A stretch of 64,000 bases of DNA, taken from assembly GCF_019891175.1 (NCBI RefSeq), contig NZ_CP072600.1, positions 2,542,001 through 2,606,000 on the forward strand, written 5' to 3'. A program made the translations under genes and the position numbers. The notes beneath the pieces are model-generated. The model worked only from the letters and a program-made list of their open reading frames with translations. It was not told the origin of the DNA and did no database searches. The stretch comes from Leptothermofonsia sichuanensis E412. GTDB lineage: Bacteria > Cyanobacteriota > Cyanobacteriia > Leptolyngbyales > Leptolyngbyaceae. This document shows, one piece after another, positions 39,627 to 49,732 of this stretch. Each line of letters begins with the position of its first letter. Position 1 is the first letter of the stretch.

Positions 39627-40328
39627 TCAAATCATTAACCGTTCCAGGGCATGGGGGTCAGGAATCGTGAGGATATCGCGATCGCGAACGATCAACCCCT
39701 TCTTTTCCAGCTTGCTCAATACCCGTGTCACGGTTTCCCGCGCCAGCCCACTCAGGCTGCTCAGTTCACGGTGGGGTAGATTGGGAATCTCAGTGCCGTG
39801 CTGACTCTTTTTACCCTGTCCATCTGCTAGAAACAGCAAAATATCTGCCACCCGCGAGGTACTGTCAGATTCGCGCAAACGCAGCCGCCGGTTCACCTGA
39901 CGTAACCGGCGGGCCATCAACTGAGCTAACCGGATACCGGACTGAGGCTCCGTGTGTAACAGATTGACAAAGTCCTGGGCTGGCATATTACCAATCACTG
40001 TCGGAGCCAGCGTGATGACATCAGTTGAGCGGGGCACCTCATCCAGCGGAGCCATTTCCCCAAACAGCTCACCTTTGCCCAGAATGTTCAGAGTCACTTC
40101 CTTTCCATCCAGGTTATAGGTGCGAATTTTTACCCAGCCATTCAGAATGAAATACACAGAACTGCCCCAGTCATTCTCCAGCAAAATCACCTGGTTTGCC
40201 GGGTGACTGCGCATGACCACATGGGCAGTCGCTTTTTCCACAGCCGCTTCCGGCAACCCCTCAAAAAAAGGCGCTGAACGAATCGATATGTTGGCGCTGC
40301 CATCACGAGGGCTAAACCGATCTTCCAT
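39627..40328 (-). CDS. Crp/Fnr-family transcriptional regulator
   Basis: 233 residues from ATG 40328. The cyclic-nucleotide-binding fold shows VKIRTYNLDGKEVTLNILGKGELFGEMAPLDEVPRSTDVITL, in which GEMA...RS fits the phosphate-binding cassette of cAMP receptors. The helix-turn-helix is LPHRELSSLSGLARETVTRVLSKLEKKGLI. It resembles the SYCRP1-like group rather than NtcA. The in-frame TTG at 40355 is less likely as a start. It is the first gene of a minus-strand run with the amidotransferase and CNT genes. Confidence 0.88.
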   Translation of the reverse strand: MEDRFSPRDGSANISIRSAPFFEGLPEAAVEKATAHVVMRSHPANQVILLENDWGSSVYFILNGWVKIRTYNLDGKEVTLNILGKGELFGEMAPLDEVPRSTDVITLAPTVIGNMPAQDFVNLLHTEPQSGIRLAQLMARRLRQVNRRLRLRESDSTSRVADILLFLADGQGKKSQHGTEIPNLPHRELSSLSGLARETVTRVLSKLEKKGLIVRDRDILTIPDPHALERLMI

Positions 40329-40570
40329 GGAGTTACGGCGAGGTATGTTCTTCAATCAGGGTAATCATAATTCAATCCCTCAAAATTGGCTGACTAAAAA
40401 CAAGTGCCATTCAACACCAACCCGTGTTACCTGCCATTCACCATCAGCCTTGTCTGAAGATCTATCTGAAGATCTATAAAAATCTGGAGATCTGTCACCG
40501 TAATCATAAATCATAACGGCGGGTATTTTGGGTATTCAACGGTAGCCTGTAGCTCTATTCAGTGACTCTT

Positions 40571-41367: not shown

Positions 41368-44300
41368 GTGGCTCCGCTGAAGCCCACCTCCGCCCAAGCA
41401 CTAGTCAGAGGTTACACTGTGACTTCTCAGAAAGACCAGATTCAAGGACTGATTGCAGATATTGATGGAGTCCTCCAAAAGACGACTCCCCGCCTCCCCT
41501 GGGTAATGTCGGGTGAAGTCACCCAGCAACGCCAGACTTTAGAGCGGGTTCGTAACTACCTGGTCGCCCTTCAGCGACGAATGGCGATTCAAGATAGCTA
41601 TGGACAGCCAGAGGCCAGAGCAGACTTACTGGCCCATGACATCTACCAATCTGCCCAGCCTGCTCAGGGGAACCTGACTCAAGACGCAGAGTCAGTCATG
41701 ACAGCCCAGCAGATGTTGCAGGCGGTGGTGCAGGAGATGAGCTACCTGCGAACAAACCTGATGCAACCTCTCCAGTCCGATCTGGACGCTTTACGACAGC
41801 AGCGAGAGTTTCTGGTTCAGGAGATTCGCCAACTGGAAGCCCAACGGCAGAGTTATGGGGCACTGCCACCCCAGGTCAGTCAACAGCAGCTCATTAATGA
41901 CTTTTTGCAGGCCCTAATGGGGCGACTGCAAGAAACATTGCCCCACCAGATTGCTCAGGCATTGGGCGGGGGAAGCAATCAGTCCCTGCCCTACGGTGCC
42001 AATCCGCCTCTGGCAGGGGCTTACCCATTTGGTGCAGAACAACCCACTCAGCCTGCGACCGATCGCCTCATCCTCAATCTGGACTCGACGCTAAAGGTGA
42101 TTTTTGAATCTCTGGAGCGCAACGTGCAGGCCTATCAAGAATCTCTTTCCCAGGGGTTGGATCGGATGCATGGGCTGGGGCAACAGGGCGAGATGATGTT
42201 TACAGCTCTGATTAATCATCTGGCACAGCAGTTGGGGCGAGAAGCATCTTCCTATCTACAGTCTTCCAGGCAGTTTGTGGAGTTAGATGCAGACTCTCTG
42301 ACTGGCCCAGAAGTCATCACCGGGAAAAAAGCAGGTGTCCCGGCCCAGGATGCCCAACCTGCTTCTACCCCTTCCTTAACGGAGCCAGAGCATGGGGTAT
42401 CTTCTCCTGCCTCGGAGTCAGGCGTAGGGAATTTAATGCTGCCCTATCCGGGGGCCGAAATGCCTCTGCCAGAAACCCCTGAGAGGGAAATTCCCGCTGA
42501 CTTTTCCGTGGAATCGCCGCCAGCAGCGATGTCTGTAGATGCGGCAATTGACGCCTGGTTAAAGTCTGCCAATGCGGCTAGTGGAATCAACCTGGAAGAA
42601 CAGGAACTATCCAATCTGGATCTGCCTGGCTTGAACCTGACAGAACTGGATCTGAATCAAATCGATCTGAATCAAATCGATACCCAGGACCTGGATGCTC
42701 TTCTGGAAACAGAAACAGGTTCCGATGCTGAGTATCTGGCAGCAGAAGCGGAGGTTCTGGTGGATCAGTTCCCGCTCCCTGAAGCAGAGGCGGTAGAGAT
42801 GGGGACTGAAGATATCGATGCTGCGCTCAAGCTTCTGGAACAGTTAAGTTCAGAACTACAGGACGATTCAACGGGAATATCCCTGGAAGCTGCCGATGCC
42901 CAGATTGATCGAATGCTGACCAGCGGGTCGGCTTCTGGTGCAGGGGATGCTGAATCCGCTTATCCCACGCCCCCGGCAGGAATTCCCGAGGATGCCCGCG
43001 ATGAACTCGATGAGTTTTATCAGAGCTTATTTGGCAGTGCAACGGAGACAGATGTCTCTTCAGACGCCCAGGAAACTGCGATCGCCCCTCCAATCACTCC
43101 ATCCGTCACCCCGTCAGAGCCAGGGGGGTCTCTGGAAGAGATGTCCCCAGATCCTACCCTGGGTTGGGACTTGTCCCCCGGTGACCTGTCCACCCGCGAC
43201 CAGGCTGTCAATGCCCTGGCAGACACACCTGAAGTCCTCACCCCAGAGGAGAGTCAGGAACCGCCAGCCGGGGCTGAAGCAACCCCAGCGATCGCAGGCG
43301 AACACCCCCCATTGCCCACCCCAGGCAGCGACCAGATCAGTCGGTTGACTGATTTGTTTGAGGACGTTACCTCGGGGGAGGGTTTACGGCAGGAGCCAGA
43401 CCTGGCAACTCTTCCAGACAACCCACTGGGGGCAGGAGGGCTGTCACCGGAAACTGGAGATTTCCAACCGATTTTTAATCTGGAGCTTAATCAGGGTGAA
43501 CTGACCGTTCCCCCTGAAGAGTCCTATCCACCCGCCTCTCCTGACGAGGACCTTTTGGGGCTGGATGAATCTCCTGACAACCCCAATCTGGGATTGTGGC
43601 TCGACGATCTTACTCTGAGCAGCCTGAGTGAAGACCTTTCCAGTTTTGAAGAGGGGATCAGTCAGGCTCCCCCTGTGTTGGACGTGGAGGAGATTTCTGC
43701 AATAGAACAGCCGGTCCTGGGGGACTGGGGTACCGAAGCAAGCCAGACAGACGCTCCAGAGATTTCTTTACAGGATCTGGCTGTTTCGCTCGCCGGGGAA
43801 ACGCCTGCTCTGGATACGGTTTCTGAGCAGTTTTTGCCACCTGCTGAACCGTCAACAGCAGCCCCTACCCTGGAAGGGCTGGATGACCTGTTTGGGGATT
43901 TACCCACTGCGCCAGATGTCAGCCCGACTACTCCACCGGCCTTCTTATCGGCGGCTGAAGACGCTTCCTTTACGCTGGAAGGGCTGGGGGATCTGTTTGC
44001 CGATGCCTCGCCTGCGCCAACTGTCAATCCAGCCTCTCCACCTGGCTTTACAGGGGCGGAACTCGAAAGGCCTGACCTGGAAGAGATTGAATCCCTACAA
44101 ATGGAGACCTCCCGGTCGGCGACGGCACCGGTTGTGCCGGAAACTTCGGCACCGGTTGAAACACCCGCTGAAGCACCAGCAGCTTTCATCCTGGAAGGGA
44201 TGGACGATCTGTTTGAGGATGCACCAGCCGCCGTGGGTTCTGCGCCAATCTCTCCTGGGTCTGGATTTTTGTCTGCTGTGACGGATACAACTCAGTCAGC

Positions 44301-44955
44301 TCCCTTTACCCTGGAGGGATTGGACGATCTGTTCGCAGATATTCCATCCGTAGAGCCGTCCACTCCTGATACAACCATTACCCCAGAGCAGGTAGAGGCG
44401 TTCACCCTGGAGGGGATGGATGACTTGTTTACCGATGCCCCATCCCTGGAGGTTGCAGGAACGCCTGAACCCCCACAACCAGGCACACCGTCTGAGCCGC
44501 CCACCCAGTTTACCCTGGAACAGATGGGGGATGTTTTTATGGAGGTGCCAATGGGCGACGTGGGTGAACCTCTGCTTGCCCCTGCCATGCCCTCTGAGCC
44601 GCTCACCCAATTTACCCTGGAGCAAATGGGTGAGGTATTTGTCGAAGTGCCTGTAGAAGACAGTCCTCCTGTTTCAGAGTCTTCCGTTTCTGTTCCAGCG
44701 GCTGACACTGAATCGCCGACAGCTTTCAGTCTGGAGCAAATGGGGGATCTGTTTATCGAAGTTCCGTCCTCACCTGATGCCTTCACGGTTGCTTCGACAG
44801 AAACACCACCTGAGGAATTCAGCCTGGAGCAGATTGGCGATCTGTTCGTAGAGGTACCTGTGTCGGAGTATGGCTCTGCGGACGCTCCAGCACCTTCGTC
44901 TGCTGAGTCTGCGGACATGCATCCTCAGGCACCCGAAAAAAAAAAGACGATCTAG
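41368..44955 (+). CDS. Acidic protein with nine LExhxDLF-type repeats; zero-frame product
   Basis: 1195 residues from GTG 41368. Residues 1-210 are helical and coiled-coil-like (LQSDLDALRQQREFLVQEIRQLEAQRQ, QLINDFLQALMGRLQETLPHQIAQAL). From about residue 300 on it is acidic, Pro/Ser/Glu-rich and probably disordered. Nine copies of a motif, F-T/S-L-E-G/Q-h-D/G-D-h-F-x-D/E-h-P, start near residues 833, 868, 940, 980, 1012, 1048, 1082, 1120 and 1151; a degenerate one (SRLTDLFEDV) is near 660. Five upstream copies read LEGhxDLF, the last four LEQhGxhF. I do not recognise a family. The frame ends EKKKTI-stop right after an A10 run, and the Hsp70-like frame continues in -1. Confidence 0.85.
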   Translation: MAPLKPTSAQALVRGYTVTSQKDQIQGLIADIDGVLQKTTPRLPWVMSGEVTQQRQTLERVRNYLVALQRRMAIQDSYGQPEARADLLAHDIYQSAQPAQGNLTQDAESVMTAQQMLQAVVQEMSYLRTNLMQPLQSDLDALRQQREFLVQEIRQLEAQRQSYGALPPQVSQQQLINDFLQALMGRLQETLPHQIAQALGGGSNQSLPYGANPPLAGAYPFGAEQPTQPATDRLILNLDSTLKVIFESLERNVQAYQESLSQGLDRMHGLGQQGEMMFTALINHLAQQLGREASSYLQSSRQFVELDADSLTGPEVITGKKAGVPAQDAQPASTPSLTEPEHGVSSPASESGVGNLMLPYPGAEMPLPETPEREIPADFSVESPPAAMSVDAAIDAWLKSANAASGINLEEQELSNLDLPGLNLTELDLNQIDLNQIDTQDLDALLETETGSDAEYLAAEAEVLVDQFPLPEAEAVEMGTEDIDAALKLLEQLSSELQDDSTGISLEAADAQIDRMLTSGSASGAGDAESAYPTPPAGIPEDARDELDEFYQSLFGSATETDVSSDAQETAIAPPITPSVTPSEPGGSLEEMSPDPTLGWDLSPGDLSTRDQAVNALADTPEVLTPEESQEPPAGAEATPAIAGEHPPLPTPGSDQISRLTDLFEDVTSGEGLRQEPDLATLPDNPLGAGGLSPETGDFQPIFNLELNQGELTVPPEESYPPASPDEDLLGLDESPDNPNLGLWLDDLTLSSLSEDLSSFEEGISQAPPVLDVEEISAIEQPVLGDWGTEASQTDAPEISLQDLAVSLAGETPALDTVSEQFLPPAEPSTAAPTLEGLDDLFGDLPTAPDVSPTTPPAFLSAAEDASFTLEGLGDLFADASPAPTVNPASPPGFTGAELERPDLEEIESLQMETSRSATAPVVPETSAPVETPAEAPAAFILEGMDDLFEDAPAAVGSAPISPGSGFLSAVTDTTQSAPFTLEGLDDLFADIPSVEPSTPDTTITPEQVEAFTLEGMDDLFTDAPSLEVAGTPEPPQPGTPSEPPTQFTLEQMGDVFMEVPMGDVGEPLLAPAMPSEPLTQFTLEQMGEVFVEVPVEDSPPVSESSVSVPAADTESPTAFSLEQMGDLFIEVPSSPDAFTVASTETPPEEFSLEQIGDLFVEVPVSEYGSADAPAPSSAESADMHPQAPEKKKTI

Positions 44956-44982
44956 CCGCAAGTCCTCCAGCCGGGGCTTCGG
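44936..44982 (+). promoter_or_regulatory. Candidate -1 frameshift site (A10 run, A AAA AAG heptamer, downstream stem)
   Basis: The run of ten A (44936-44945) followed by G contains A AAA AAG (44940-44946) in the correct zero-frame phase. This heptamer is the one used by E. coli dnaX. After a -1 slip the ribosome reads GAC-GAT-CTA-GCC (frame of the Hsp70 gene) with no stop. A possible stem, CCG(C)AAG (44956-44962) with CTTCGG (44977-44982), starts 9 nt after the heptamer. Transcript slippage on A10, or a one-base indel, would have the same effect. Confidence 0.6.
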
Positions 44983-45119
44983 TTCATCCTCCAGTAAATC
45001 TCGAACCCGAAAATCCTCAGGTCCGTCTTCCAGAAAGCCAGGGGAATGACTCGCCTGAGGCTCACCCAAGGGTCAGGGAGTTTCATCCACAGGAGCCGCA
45101 GAACTCTGAAATCCCTGGG

Positions 45120-46919
45120 TTGGGGCTGGAGCCGCCGCTCCATTCAGCCCGGTCTGCCCCCAGTCGTAGACGCTGGTATTTAGGCATTGACTTTGGTACC
45201 GTGGGAATTGCCGCCACACTTCTGGATCGGGACACCTGTCAGCTTTATGGGATTTCATGGCAGGGGATAGGCCCGGATGGAACATCGGTGCCGCTGCTGC
45301 GGTTGCCTGCGATCGCCTATGTTTCAACTGACCAACTGAAGCAGGCACCTGAACCTCCCATGGCGATCGGAGATCTTGCCCTCAAAGCCAGAACCGCCAT
45401 GGCAGATCACCCGGCTGCCGGGCTGCTCCTCAGTAATCTGCGCCATTGTTTGACCATTACTATTCCCTACTACTCTCCCCAAAAACGAACCTGGGAACCA
45501 GTCTTACAGTGGTCTGATACTCAGTGGATTCCCCTGGTCTGGGTGCAACAGGCCGTCACCGCACTCCTGGGCAGCTTGAACGGGAAATTGCCCGATACCC
45601 CAGCGACTGCAACAGCTGAGGGATTATCCCCTCAGGATTTTCAAACAGCCCTGACTGAACTGACGGGTGTGATTCTGGGTTGCCCGACAGGCTGGTCCGA
45701 TACCTATCGGTTCAATCTGCGGGAGTCAGTGTTAGCGGCTGGTTTGGTGACAACCCCTGGACAAATCTTTTTTGTGGAAGATGCGATCGCTGCCCTCCTC
45801 TACAATCTGCCAGCTACCAGCGAACTAGCCTCTGGACAGATACCGCCCGTTCCCCTTCAGGGAAATACTTTTGTCTTGAACGCGGGGGCCACTTTTACAG
45901 AACTGTTGCTGGTCGATCTGCCCCCCGATCCCCAAACCCTGAGCCGGGAAGACCTTGCCCTCCGCAGCATTGCCTATGGGGGCAACGGGATTGATCAGGA
46001 CATCATCTGCCAGCTTCTCTATCCCTCTGCCTGGGGGTGGCGCAACCTGGGAACCCCCAGCCTGGACTTGCCTCTACCCGGTGAACCCGATTTACCAACT
46101 CGTTATCGGTTCCAGCAACGATTGCGCAGCAGTGACCTGGGACAAAATCTGGTCAGAATTGCCAGACAGCTTAAATTAACCTTGCAGCAGGAAGACACCG
46201 CTAGTTTTTCCCTCAATGATCGACAGTGGAGCGTGAGCCAGCAAGATTTCTATAGTCGGGTTATGGCTCCCTACATTCAAACCATTAATCGAGAAATCAA
46301 TGCTCTTTTAGCCCAGACCAGCATGACGGTGCAGTCCATTCGGCAGGTTCTCTGTACGGGTGGGATGGCAGCTAACCCGGCGATCGCCCACTGGCTAAAG
46401 CAAAAATTCCCAAATGCTGCTCTGCTGCAAGATTCCAGCCACTCAAAAGCTGCCAGCCGCCGTATTGCCACGGGACTGGCAAAACTGCCCATCTATCCTC
46501 AACTACTGGATGCTAGTCGCCACCAGTATGATGACTACTTCCTGTTGCGCGAATTACTGCGGACATTGCCCGACGATCCCTTACCCCTGGGGCGTATTCT
46601 GCAACTGCTGGAAATGCAGGGAATCCATCCTCAACAATGTCAGCCAGCAATTCTCAGATTACTGGACGGACAACTGCCAGTCGGTCTGGTGCCCGTAAAA
46701 GCAGACCTGGTCCTGTTGGCTCCAGATTCAAAGCGGAATGAAGAATATCAGGCGCTGATGTCTGCTCCTGCCTTTTTCCAGGAAGGCAATCAGGTTTACC
46801 GGCTAAACCCAGAGTTGGGCGATGATCTCTGGCACTTTTTATCCACCATCCTGGATGAAACCCATCAGACCTTAGACCAGCCGCTGTCGAATGAGCTGGG
46901 GGTTGAGATCGCGATTTGA
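45120..46919 (+). CDS. Hsp70-like ATPase domain protein, likely expressed as a frameshift fusion
   Basis: 599 residues if started at TTG 45120, but the frame is open back to 44946 and contains no ATG or GTG in that interval. No Shine-Dalgarno stands in front of the TTG. The Hsp70/actin-type ATPase core is visible: phosphate-1 WYLGIDFGTVGIAATLL, a connect-1-like VEDAIAALLYNLP, phosphate-2 degenerate as VLNAGATFTELLLVDL, and adenosine loop CTGGMAANPAIAHWL. DnaK's substrate-binding domain is replaced by ~170 unfamiliar residues (from about LDASRHQYDDYFLLREL). It is probably a non-canonical chaperone or regulatory ATPase; if fused, the product would be about 1850 residues. Confidence 0.82.
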   Translation: MGLEPPLHSARSAPSRRRWYLGIDFGTVGIAATLLDRDTCQLYGISWQGIGPDGTSVPLLRLPAIAYVSTDQLKQAPEPPMAIGDLALKARTAMADHPAAGLLLSNLRHCLTITIPYYSPQKRTWEPVLQWSDTQWIPLVWVQQAVTALLGSLNGKLPDTPATATAEGLSPQDFQTALTELTGVILGCPTGWSDTYRFNLRESVLAAGLVTTPGQIFFVEDAIAALLYNLPATSELASGQIPPVPLQGNTFVLNAGATFTELLLVDLPPDPQTLSREDLALRSIAYGGNGIDQDIICQLLYPSAWGWRNLGTPSLDLPLPGEPDLPTRYRFQQRLRSSDLGQNLVRIARQLKLTLQQEDTASFSLNDRQWSVSQQDFYSRVMAPYIQTINREINALLAQTSMTVQSIRQVLCTGGMAANPAIAHWLKQKFPNAALLQDSSHSKAASRRIATGLAKLPIYPQLLDASRHQYDDYFLLRELLRTLPDDPLPLGRILQLLEMQGIHPQQCQPAILRLLDGQLPVGLVPVKADLVLLAPDSKRNEEYQALMSAPAFFQEGNQVYRLNPELGDDLWHFLSTILDETHQTLDQPLSNELGVEIAI

Positions 46920-48694: not shown

Positions 48695-49732
48695 CAGCGG
48701 TTCTCAGATGAATAAGCCACAGTGATTGAACCAGCCAAGGGCATCGTCAGCAGAAATACACTCGTTGATAATCCTGGTTAAAGCTTGGTCGAGCGCTTCC
48801 TGCGTTCGAGCCTTGGCTGAACGCAGGAGCTGCTTGAGTTTTGACCAACATAGTTCAATCGGTGAAAGGTCTGGGGAATAAGGCGGCAGAAACACAACCT
48901 TGGCTCCAACCGATTCAATTGCCGCTTGCACGACTGAAGCATGATGCACGGGTAGATTATCCATCAGCACGATCGCCCCTACCCACAATTGCGGAATCAG
49001 AATCTCCTGGATGTAGAACAAGAACACGTCAGTATTGACACTGCCAACAATACTCATGCTAGCAATCAACCCATCAATACTCATGCCACCAATCAACGAG
49101 ATATTCTTGCCCCCATCGCCAGGAGCCTCAGTGTCATACAAGCGTTCACCGATGGGGGCACGACCAGACAAACGAGTCATTGCCAGATGGATGCCCGTTT
49201 CATCAATGAAAACCAAGTTGCGCGGGTCGATTGTAAAACTCCACAGGCGATAAGCAAACCGCAAATCCTTCACCCTTTGAGTATCTTGCTGGGAGGCAAT
49301 CAGTGTTTTTTTTTGACGCTGAGCTTGAGCTTAGACACAGCCTGTTGCATGGTTGATATACTCACCTCCACTCCACTTTGTTGGGCAAAGCGTTCACACA
49401 ACTCCTTGAGTAGGGCATCCGGTTGAGCCGTGACTAGGGCTTCAACGATGGGCAACTGCTCTTTGCCCAACTTGGCAATGGCTCCTCCTCCGTGCGCTTT
49501 AGGCTCCACGGTGCCTGTCTCACAATAGTGTCGCCTTAGATCTCGAATGAACGATAAGCTCACCTTGAAGCGCTCTGCCAGTTGCCGTTGTGATCCTTCT
49601 TGAGCTTCATAGGCTGCCATGATTCGTTGCCGTAGATCAACTGACAGAGGGGCGGGCATAAGCAGCTAGCTCCTAGCTTTTGATAGTTGTTTTAGCCTAC
49701 CAGAATGTGGCTTACTCCATCAATAACGGCTG
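48695..49732 (-). mobile_element. IS630-family insertion sequence 2 (apparently intact)
   Basis: About 1.04 kb flanked by TA (48693-48694 and 49733-49734). The terminal inverted repeats are CAGCGGTTCTCAGATGAATAAG... and, at the right end, the complement reads CAGCCGTTATTGATGGAGTAAG, sharing CAGC-GTT and TAAGCCACA. The two transposase ORFs fill the element. Confidence 0.82.
48704..49659 (-). CDS. IS630 transposase, orfA/orfB joined by -1 frameshift
   Basis: orfA (49659 down to 49300, 119 aa: MPAPLSVDLRQRIMAAYEAQEGSQRQLAERF) has the HTH. orfB continues in the -1 frame as KTLIASQQDTQRVKDLRFAYRLWSF, then VFIDETGIH (first Asp), VLMDNLPVHH (second Asp) and PYSPDLSPIELCWSKLK (Glu), ending at 48704. 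The switch falls on a 9-nt A run (complement of 49306-49314). Apart from that shift the gene looks complete, so this copy may be active. Confidence 0.85.

Follow-up and report, generated by a model that had tools for sequence, protein, structure and literature searches.

RNA polymerase slippage on runs of A—programmed transcriptional realignment—has been reported mostly for insertion sequence (IS) elements, dnaX being the chief example among conserved cellular genes, as far as the accessible text of the sources cited here goes. Transposase ORFA and ORFB are fused at runs of A8 to A10 in IS elements, Nostoc included, where slippage on eight A's has been inferred; nine A's is also the length at which selection against such runs shows in a large part of bacterial genomes (PMC1088944). 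Some dnaX genes are split into two open reading frames (ORFs) at ten A's, three others with Chlorobi names have seven to nine, and Antonov and colleagues treat both shift directions within one gene function as a sign of transcriptional realignment (PMC3711429); polymerase slippage in Thermus dnaX has been linked to tRNA-Lys(CUU) (review PMC5009743). Here we describe a gene of the cyanobacterium Leptothermofonsia sichuanensis E412, the slip gene, in which an ORF for an acidic, repeat-bearing protein meets an Hsp70-like ATPase frame at a run of ten A's. It lies in a 64,000-nt stretch of DNA (the window: RefSeq assembly GCF_019891175.1, contig NZ_CP072600.1, positions 2,542,001 to 2,606,000, forward strand), and the run recurs at the same junction in many cyanobacteria, where one gene probably gives rise to two proteins through polymerase slippage.

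The zero-frame codons at the 3′ end of the upstream ORF read GAA AAA AAA AAG ACG ATC TAG, and the Hsp70-like frame, −1 relative to it, is open from 44907 to 46919 (positions are those of the window; Table 1). An earlier inspection of the bare letters and their ORFs (the sequence-only reading) had picked out the A10 followed by G, with A AAA AAG in zero-frame phase and a stop soon after, as well as a Hsp70-like frame open across the −1 junction with no good start of its own. Both observations were confirmed: the sole candidate start before the domain is a TTG at 45120, without a Shine–Dalgarno (SD) sequence, and there is no ATG or GTG. The same reading had joined the two frames, which stands; its 1195-codon ORF and 1850-residue fusion give way to a short form of, most likely, 1178 aa and a predicted long form of 1833 aa (196.8 kDa). 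The true start of the upstream ORF is likely GTG 41419 rather than 41368, because VTSQKDQIQ-type GTG starts behind a purine-rich stretch (AGAGG, AGGG, AAGG or AGGA) recur in 14 homologues (motif search, 19 loci) and because the upstream ORF of L033, a locus from the same genus, has no in-frame start earlier than the equivalent of GTG 41419. Substitutions between the window and L033 at the three codon positions number 343/256/640 upstream and 148/78/313 downstream of the junction, a pattern that fits coding on both sides of the run.

The ATPase-like family was present in 33 of 58 genomes in a set of relatives (own genome included) and, by profile search, in 210 of 388 genomes of the class. Junction loci were drawn from part of the 210 positive genomes, among the matches listed; after merging of identical sequences, 148 loci gave 127 distinct ones, with L030, which is without the N-terminal part of the domain, excluded. 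Homologues are not always separate genes: a run of at least nine A's lies at the junction in 76 of the 127 distinct loci. All 76 such runs sit at the junction, and no other run of at least nine A's or T's occurs in 506,726 nt of genes and flanks. The remaining 51 loci comprise seven whose longest run is A7–A8, scored as in frame, and 44 without a run of seven or more.

The phase encoded in the DNA was scored as H where the upstream part is in the Hsp70 frame, S where it is in the frame that reaches H by −1, and T where it is in the third frame. Two loci with a run but fewer than 40 codons upstream (L029 and L035) are counted among the 76 and not among the 74 classifiable loci with a run, of which 41 are S (needing −1), 24 are H (in frame) and nine are T (needing +1); family codes are absent for eight of the 74. 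Run length in the 50 S and T loci is A9 (eight loci), A10 (37) or A11 (five), and over all 74 the run is followed by G (48 loci), C (14) or T (12).

The explanation we favour, and judge probable, is that programmed slippage of RNA polymerase at this A9–A11 run makes two proteins from one gene. Translation would begin at GTG 41419, on mRNAs whose numbers of A's are mixed through slipping of the polymerase. Those in the S frame would stop at once and yield the 1178-aa acidic, helical, scaffold-like protein, and those with one extra A (or two fewer) would be read on into the Hsp70/MreB-type ATPase domain to yield the 1833-aa fusion. T loci would reach the fusion by one fewer A (or two more), H loci would need no change, and ribosomal −1 shifting may add to the fusion. 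Since the mRNA pool would hold all three frames, DNA phase would hardly matter, and orthologues could drift among the three phases while they retain the run and, in most lineages, the S-frame stop. Two features expected of realignment are seen: an A-homopolymer of at least eight to nine at the frame transition (A9–A11 in 50/50 S and T loci) and both shift directions in one orthologous family (41 S, nine T). The core of the sequence-only reading—one gene with two predicted products, fused by a slip at the A-run—is supported, and the arrangement is strongly conserved. The evidence also tilts, more modestly, towards a wider claim: that polymerase slippage is a switch in an ancient cyanobacterial gene whose output is independent of DNA phase, with lineages drifting freely between short-, long- and neither-encoded states while selection keeps the run and the short-frame stop, and with scaffold and scaffold-ATPase always made together.

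Stops after the run bear on both claims. An S-frame stop follows within 11 nt in 37/41 S, 9/9 T and 15/24 H loci. Family f32 was set aside post hoc, after its stop pattern was seen; the H loci then divide into 14/15 with a near stop outside f32 and 1/9 within it, and the non-S loci together show 23/24 outside f32 and 24/33 with f32 included. At control points downstream, an S-frame-type stop lies within 11 nt in 54 of 296 cases. Third-frame stops within the same distance occur in 15/41 S loci and in 3/24 non-S loci outside f32 (Wilcoxon p 1.8e-5), or in 3/33 H and T loci together, f32 included.

The sequence-only reading had proposed a dnaX-type −1 frameshift with A AAA AAG as the slip site and had noted a stem downstream. 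A programmed ribosomal shift of this kind, with the stem as its stimulator, we now consider unlikely as the main cause. Counting for it, and against polymerase slippage, the window and 24 of the 41 S loci have A AAA AAG in phase, and no S locus is without either A AAA AAA or A AAA AAG in phase. The ribosomal heptamer requires six A's plus G; the other 17 S loci have a different heptamer in phase, only A AAA AAA in 15 and also A AAA AAC in two. E. coli dnaX has an upstream SD-like stimulator, which is not evident in the window, and in 19 of 74 loci an SD-like tetramer precedes the run.

The window hairpin is likewise a point for the ribosome, being stable (z −2.29) and at a plausible distance past the run. 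Six other S loci folded singly gave z-scores of −2.49 (L036), −1.55 (L034), −1.12 (L049), −0.10 (L046), +0.76 (L033) and +0.98 (L038); hairpins are seen in L036 and L034 too, and the stem is absent in L033, L038 and L046. The stem that the sequence-only reading had placed downstream of the run stands in the window and fails in the same-genus L033. The mean downstream z over 74 loci, from mononucleotide shuffles, was −0.47, against −0.02 at a control point at +300 nt, a slightly negative value that also speaks for the ribosome. A conserved stimulatory RNA structure was considered and rejected, the mean signal being weak over the 74 loci and L033, L038 and L046 not negative or near zero; nor was a conserved stem found together with an upstream SD-like stimulator. 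Plastid ribosomes shift at oligo-A, and oligo-A frameshifts in Oenothera and tobacco plastids are, in the accessible text of PMC8254509, corrected mostly by ribosomes; given also the in-phase heptamers and the structure in three of the six loci, ribosomes may contribute here.

Several features speak against the ribosome as main cause. A −1 shift leaves nine T-phase loci, which need something other than −1, unexplained, together with the short-frame stops of H-phase loci and the absence of runs shorter than nine A's from S and T loci. A dnaX-type shift goes with a single tRNA-Lys for AAA and AAG, whereas this genome encodes tRNA-Lys with anticodons CUU (L222) and UUU (L227), with second copies in a tRNA array. 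We therefore prefer polymerase slippage because S, H and T phases (41, 24 and nine loci) all occur and one fixed ribosomal −1 cannot serve them all; because the S-frame stop is kept in T loci and in H loci outside f32, which do not encode that frame; because no run-bearing S or T locus has fewer than nine A's, the kept lengths being nine to eleven; because tRNA-Lys(CUU) is encoded beside UUU; and because the window hairpin was not found in L033. The tRNA array itself (L240, G000:C1:6363000-6366900) holds 26 genes called by ARAGORN, including its own Lys(UUU) and Lys(CUU), and resembles a 26-gene trn operon reported for Anabaena in the accessible text of PMC10272220.

Phase has changed between close relatives. 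When the ATPase parts were placed on a tree, some sister rows proved to be in different phases (L012 H and L015 T; L140 S and L142 T; L111 T and L117 S). On this tree the presence of at least nine A's needs nine changes, and the full set of states needs 26; it is a quick tree of 125 rows, L009 and L130 omitted, with several long branches. The pattern fits an old run that has been retained while short indels in and around it shift the encoded phase. The same differences between relatives could be taken as a sign of phase variation, in which DNA polymerase slippage alters the genomic run length and cells switch between short and long product, an idea that A-runs of IS elements in this genome allow us to weigh.

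The whole 6.43 Mb single-contig genome contains 60 A or T runs of at least nine (L150 to L209). Their flanks identify 47 of them as copies of three IS families, 43 of these lying between two open frames in the stretch fetched; one of the 60 is the slip gene and one another split gene (L192). The three families have 56 copies in all, with A9 in 46 and another sequence (A7, A8, A10 or a point change) in ten. The 35 IS1-like copies comprise 28 with A9, three each with A7 and A8, and one point variant; the 14 IS630-like copies comprise 11 with A9, two with A8 and one with A10, the last a single open frame. The seven copies, by flanks, of an integrase-core transposase family (IS3 type by our own reading) all have A9 in a +1 arrangement, with both frames open in 6/7 in the stretch fetched. 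Pfam supports the IS1, IS630 and integrase-core assignments. The +1 arrangement at A9 is, at the level of sequence, a sign of polymerase slippage in this host.

Length drift of IS runs within one genome makes DNA length change a real source of phase drift, and the variable IS1-like and IS630-like copies speak for phase variation to that extent. We nevertheless think phase variation improbable: the third IS family has A9 in 7/7 copies, little can be concluded from old differences among IS copies about switching inside one strain, and a polymerase slipping on A10 would blur any switch in the DNA, with which it could coexist.

Two observations from the same set of runs stand on their own. An IS630-type transposase (DDE_3, HTH_Tnp_IS630) in the window (48704-49659, minus strand) is split into two ORFs at A9C. 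L192 (G000:C1:4510871), which is not an IS gene, encodes a protein rich in Ser, Thr and Pro and has A10G where its frame changes by −1; it has matches in four of 39 genomes searched, own included, and G009 has a 1010-aa open frame there.

Further observations weigh against polymerase slippage as a general feature of the family, or narrow its reach. The 44 of 127 loci without a run include 25 of family f13, and in 34 of the 44 the Hsp70 frame continues upstream without a stop for 400 codons or more, so that these are fused; five no-run loci (L028, L073, L112, L124 and L130) reach the sequence edge. In L139, L144 and L055 the N-terminal domain is carried by an upstream ORF of its own, which is in a different frame and ends before the ATPase gene; in L148 (A7) it is carried by an upstream ORF that shares the frame of the ATPase gene. 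These are probably separate genes. With fused-only and two-gene lineages in the family, neither fusion nor two-form output is universal. L137 was counted as S despite several changes of frame in its upstream part; leaving it out brings S down to 40. The linker from run to domain is poorly conserved between the window and L033 (36% identity over 47 codons, substitutions 26/22/33). Family f32 (for example L080, L082 and L103) keeps A10G in frame at −104 from the ATPase domain, 8/9 of its run-bearing loci have no near short-frame stop and nine further f32 loci have no run; the short form is therefore not equally shaped in all lineages. The stop pattern of H and T loci could, moreover, be partly inherited from S-phase ancestors rather than selected. 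No recognised N-terminal domain was found upstream of the ATPase part in L052 or L037. The upstream gene in L037 resembles, by our own reading, one for a transposon-encoded zinc-ribbon protein, and the acidic half seems displaced.

Loci such as L139, L144, L055 and probably L148 look like separate genes with their own starts, and in 17 of the 50 S and T loci the Hsp70 frame contains an ATG at some point before the core. That the slip gene itself is two ordinary genes, with the Hsp70-like protein starting at its own internal codon, is nonetheless very improbable: the window offers only the TTG at 45120, eight of the 50 loci have no ATG, GTG or TTG in that frame, 41 of the 50 lack any such codon with an SD-like tetramer (nine have one), and separate genes would explain neither the run nor the in-frame fusions. 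An error of sequencing or assembly in the homopolymer of what is really a single-ORF gene can be given almost no weight. Some technologies are prone to errors at A10, many orthologues consist of a single ORF and IS-copy run lengths are not uniform in this assembly, so a wrong length in the window alone would be possible; the same run and phase recur, however, in L033 and across many families, in 41 S loci in all (L137 doubtful), which makes error unlikely.

Table 1. Features of the slip gene and its surroundings, in window positions.
Feature	Position	Strand	Evidence or remark
Slip site A10G, frame junction	A10 44936-44945, G 44946	+	sequence, homologue comparison
TAG stop of short-product (S) frame	44953..44955	+	7 nt past A-run
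Short product ORF	41419..44955	+	1178 aa, 124.8 kDa, pI 4.05; GTG start; open from GTG 41368
−1-frame portion of predicted long product, 657 aa	44946..46919	+	linker 44946-45170, ATPase part 45171-46916
AGAGG, Shine–Dalgarno-like	41407..41411	+	7 nt 5′ of GTG 41419; purine-rich in 14 homologues
Conserved N-terminal region	41419..42318	+	predicted all-helical, mean pLDDT 59.5 (low confidence)
Acidic Pro/Glu/Asp-rich region	42319..44934	+	composition
Hsp70/actin-superfamily ATPase-like domain	45171..46919	+	model pLDDT 84.1
RNA hairpin after run	44954..44984	+	z −2.29; not seen in L033
Divergent Crp/Fnr-family regulator	39627..40355	−	relatives adjoin slip gene in 17/23 loci examined

The N-terminal region of the window protein gave no Pfam match above cut-off; weak leucine-zipper matches in 8/15 rows accompany the helical model, and the region is probably an oligomerising coiled coil. 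The acidic, Pro-rich region that follows has 20% D+E and 2% K+R, with nine FTLEGMDDLFxD-type repeats within 43864-44866. If, as predicted, short and long chains share their N-terminal helices, they would most likely co-assemble into an acidic, multivalent scaffold in which ATPase heads are the minority, in a ratio that could be meaningful.

Foldseek returned BiP and DnaK as best matches to the model of the ATPase part. The model aligned with DnaK (7kzi_A) at Z 23.1 and rmsd 3.2 over 355 residues, and with MreB (8ab4) at Z 21.8 and rmsd 3.1 over 297; because MreB scores close behind DnaK, the fold was assigned to the wider Hsp70/actin superfamily. The window protein missed the gathering scores of Hsp70 PF00012 (12.2 against 20.6 bits) and PilM PF11104 (14.7 against 27 bits), which match at E ≤ 0.01 in 2/17 and 5/17 family members respectively, and the ATPase part did not reach the NCBIfam Hsp70 cut-offs. 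Residues 440-580 of the model (the C-terminal ~130) are mostly helical with two short strands, and no substrate-binding domain (beta sandwich and lid) was recognised in this C-terminal part, which was not searched alone. The second phosphate motif usually carries an acidic residue; in the alignment that residue is missing, and ATP hydrolysis is therefore uncertain.

Three gene groups recur in at least four of 23 loci examined, the divergent Crp/Fnr-family regulator being the commonest. The regulator, which falls below NCBIfam cut-offs, may control the slip gene; the neighbourhood of the 23 loci gives no pathway.

Among the matches listed in searches of the open-access literature on slippage or frameshifting with cyanobacteria, Hsp70-like or DnaK, no title or abstract beginning concerned the slip gene. 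The main text of the GeneTack survey is without Hsp70, heat shock or Nostoc, and an unnamed cluster in its supplementary tables may contain the gene. Annotation from DNA frames alone would split the slip gene or call a frameshift in many cyanobacteria, hiding a large ATPase fusion, and the family offers natural variants from A9 to A11 in three phases, from which the rules of slippage could be measured outside E. coli.

Set beside known systems, the ATPase part shares, in its model, the fold of Hsp70 (DnaK/BiP) and MreB, but it has about 16% identity, falls below curated cut-offs and has no recognised substrate-binding domain. With E. coli dnaX the window shares the in-phase A AAA AAG; unlike that gene, the slip gene has a direction that is not conserved, a run of nine to eleven, a stem that is not conserved and a separate tRNA-Lys(CUU). 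IS transposases have A-run junctions of their own in this genome, at A9 or A10 in 47 copies, whereas the slip gene is not mobile and shows long vertical conservation. Split dnaX genes likewise have two ORFs at A10 with polymerase slippage proposed, according to the accessible text of PMC3711429, in a different gene; the slip-gene family shows three phases. Thermus thermophilus dnaX likewise has A9 in the coding sequence, two products with a common N-terminus and near stops, as far as the accessible text describes (PMC5009743, PMC1088944). The gene is unrelated, however, and there the long product is encoded; here 41 of 74 loci encode the short phase, and phase varies between species. We file the slip gene within the known class of programmed transcriptional realignment and regard the extent of its phase drift as unusual.

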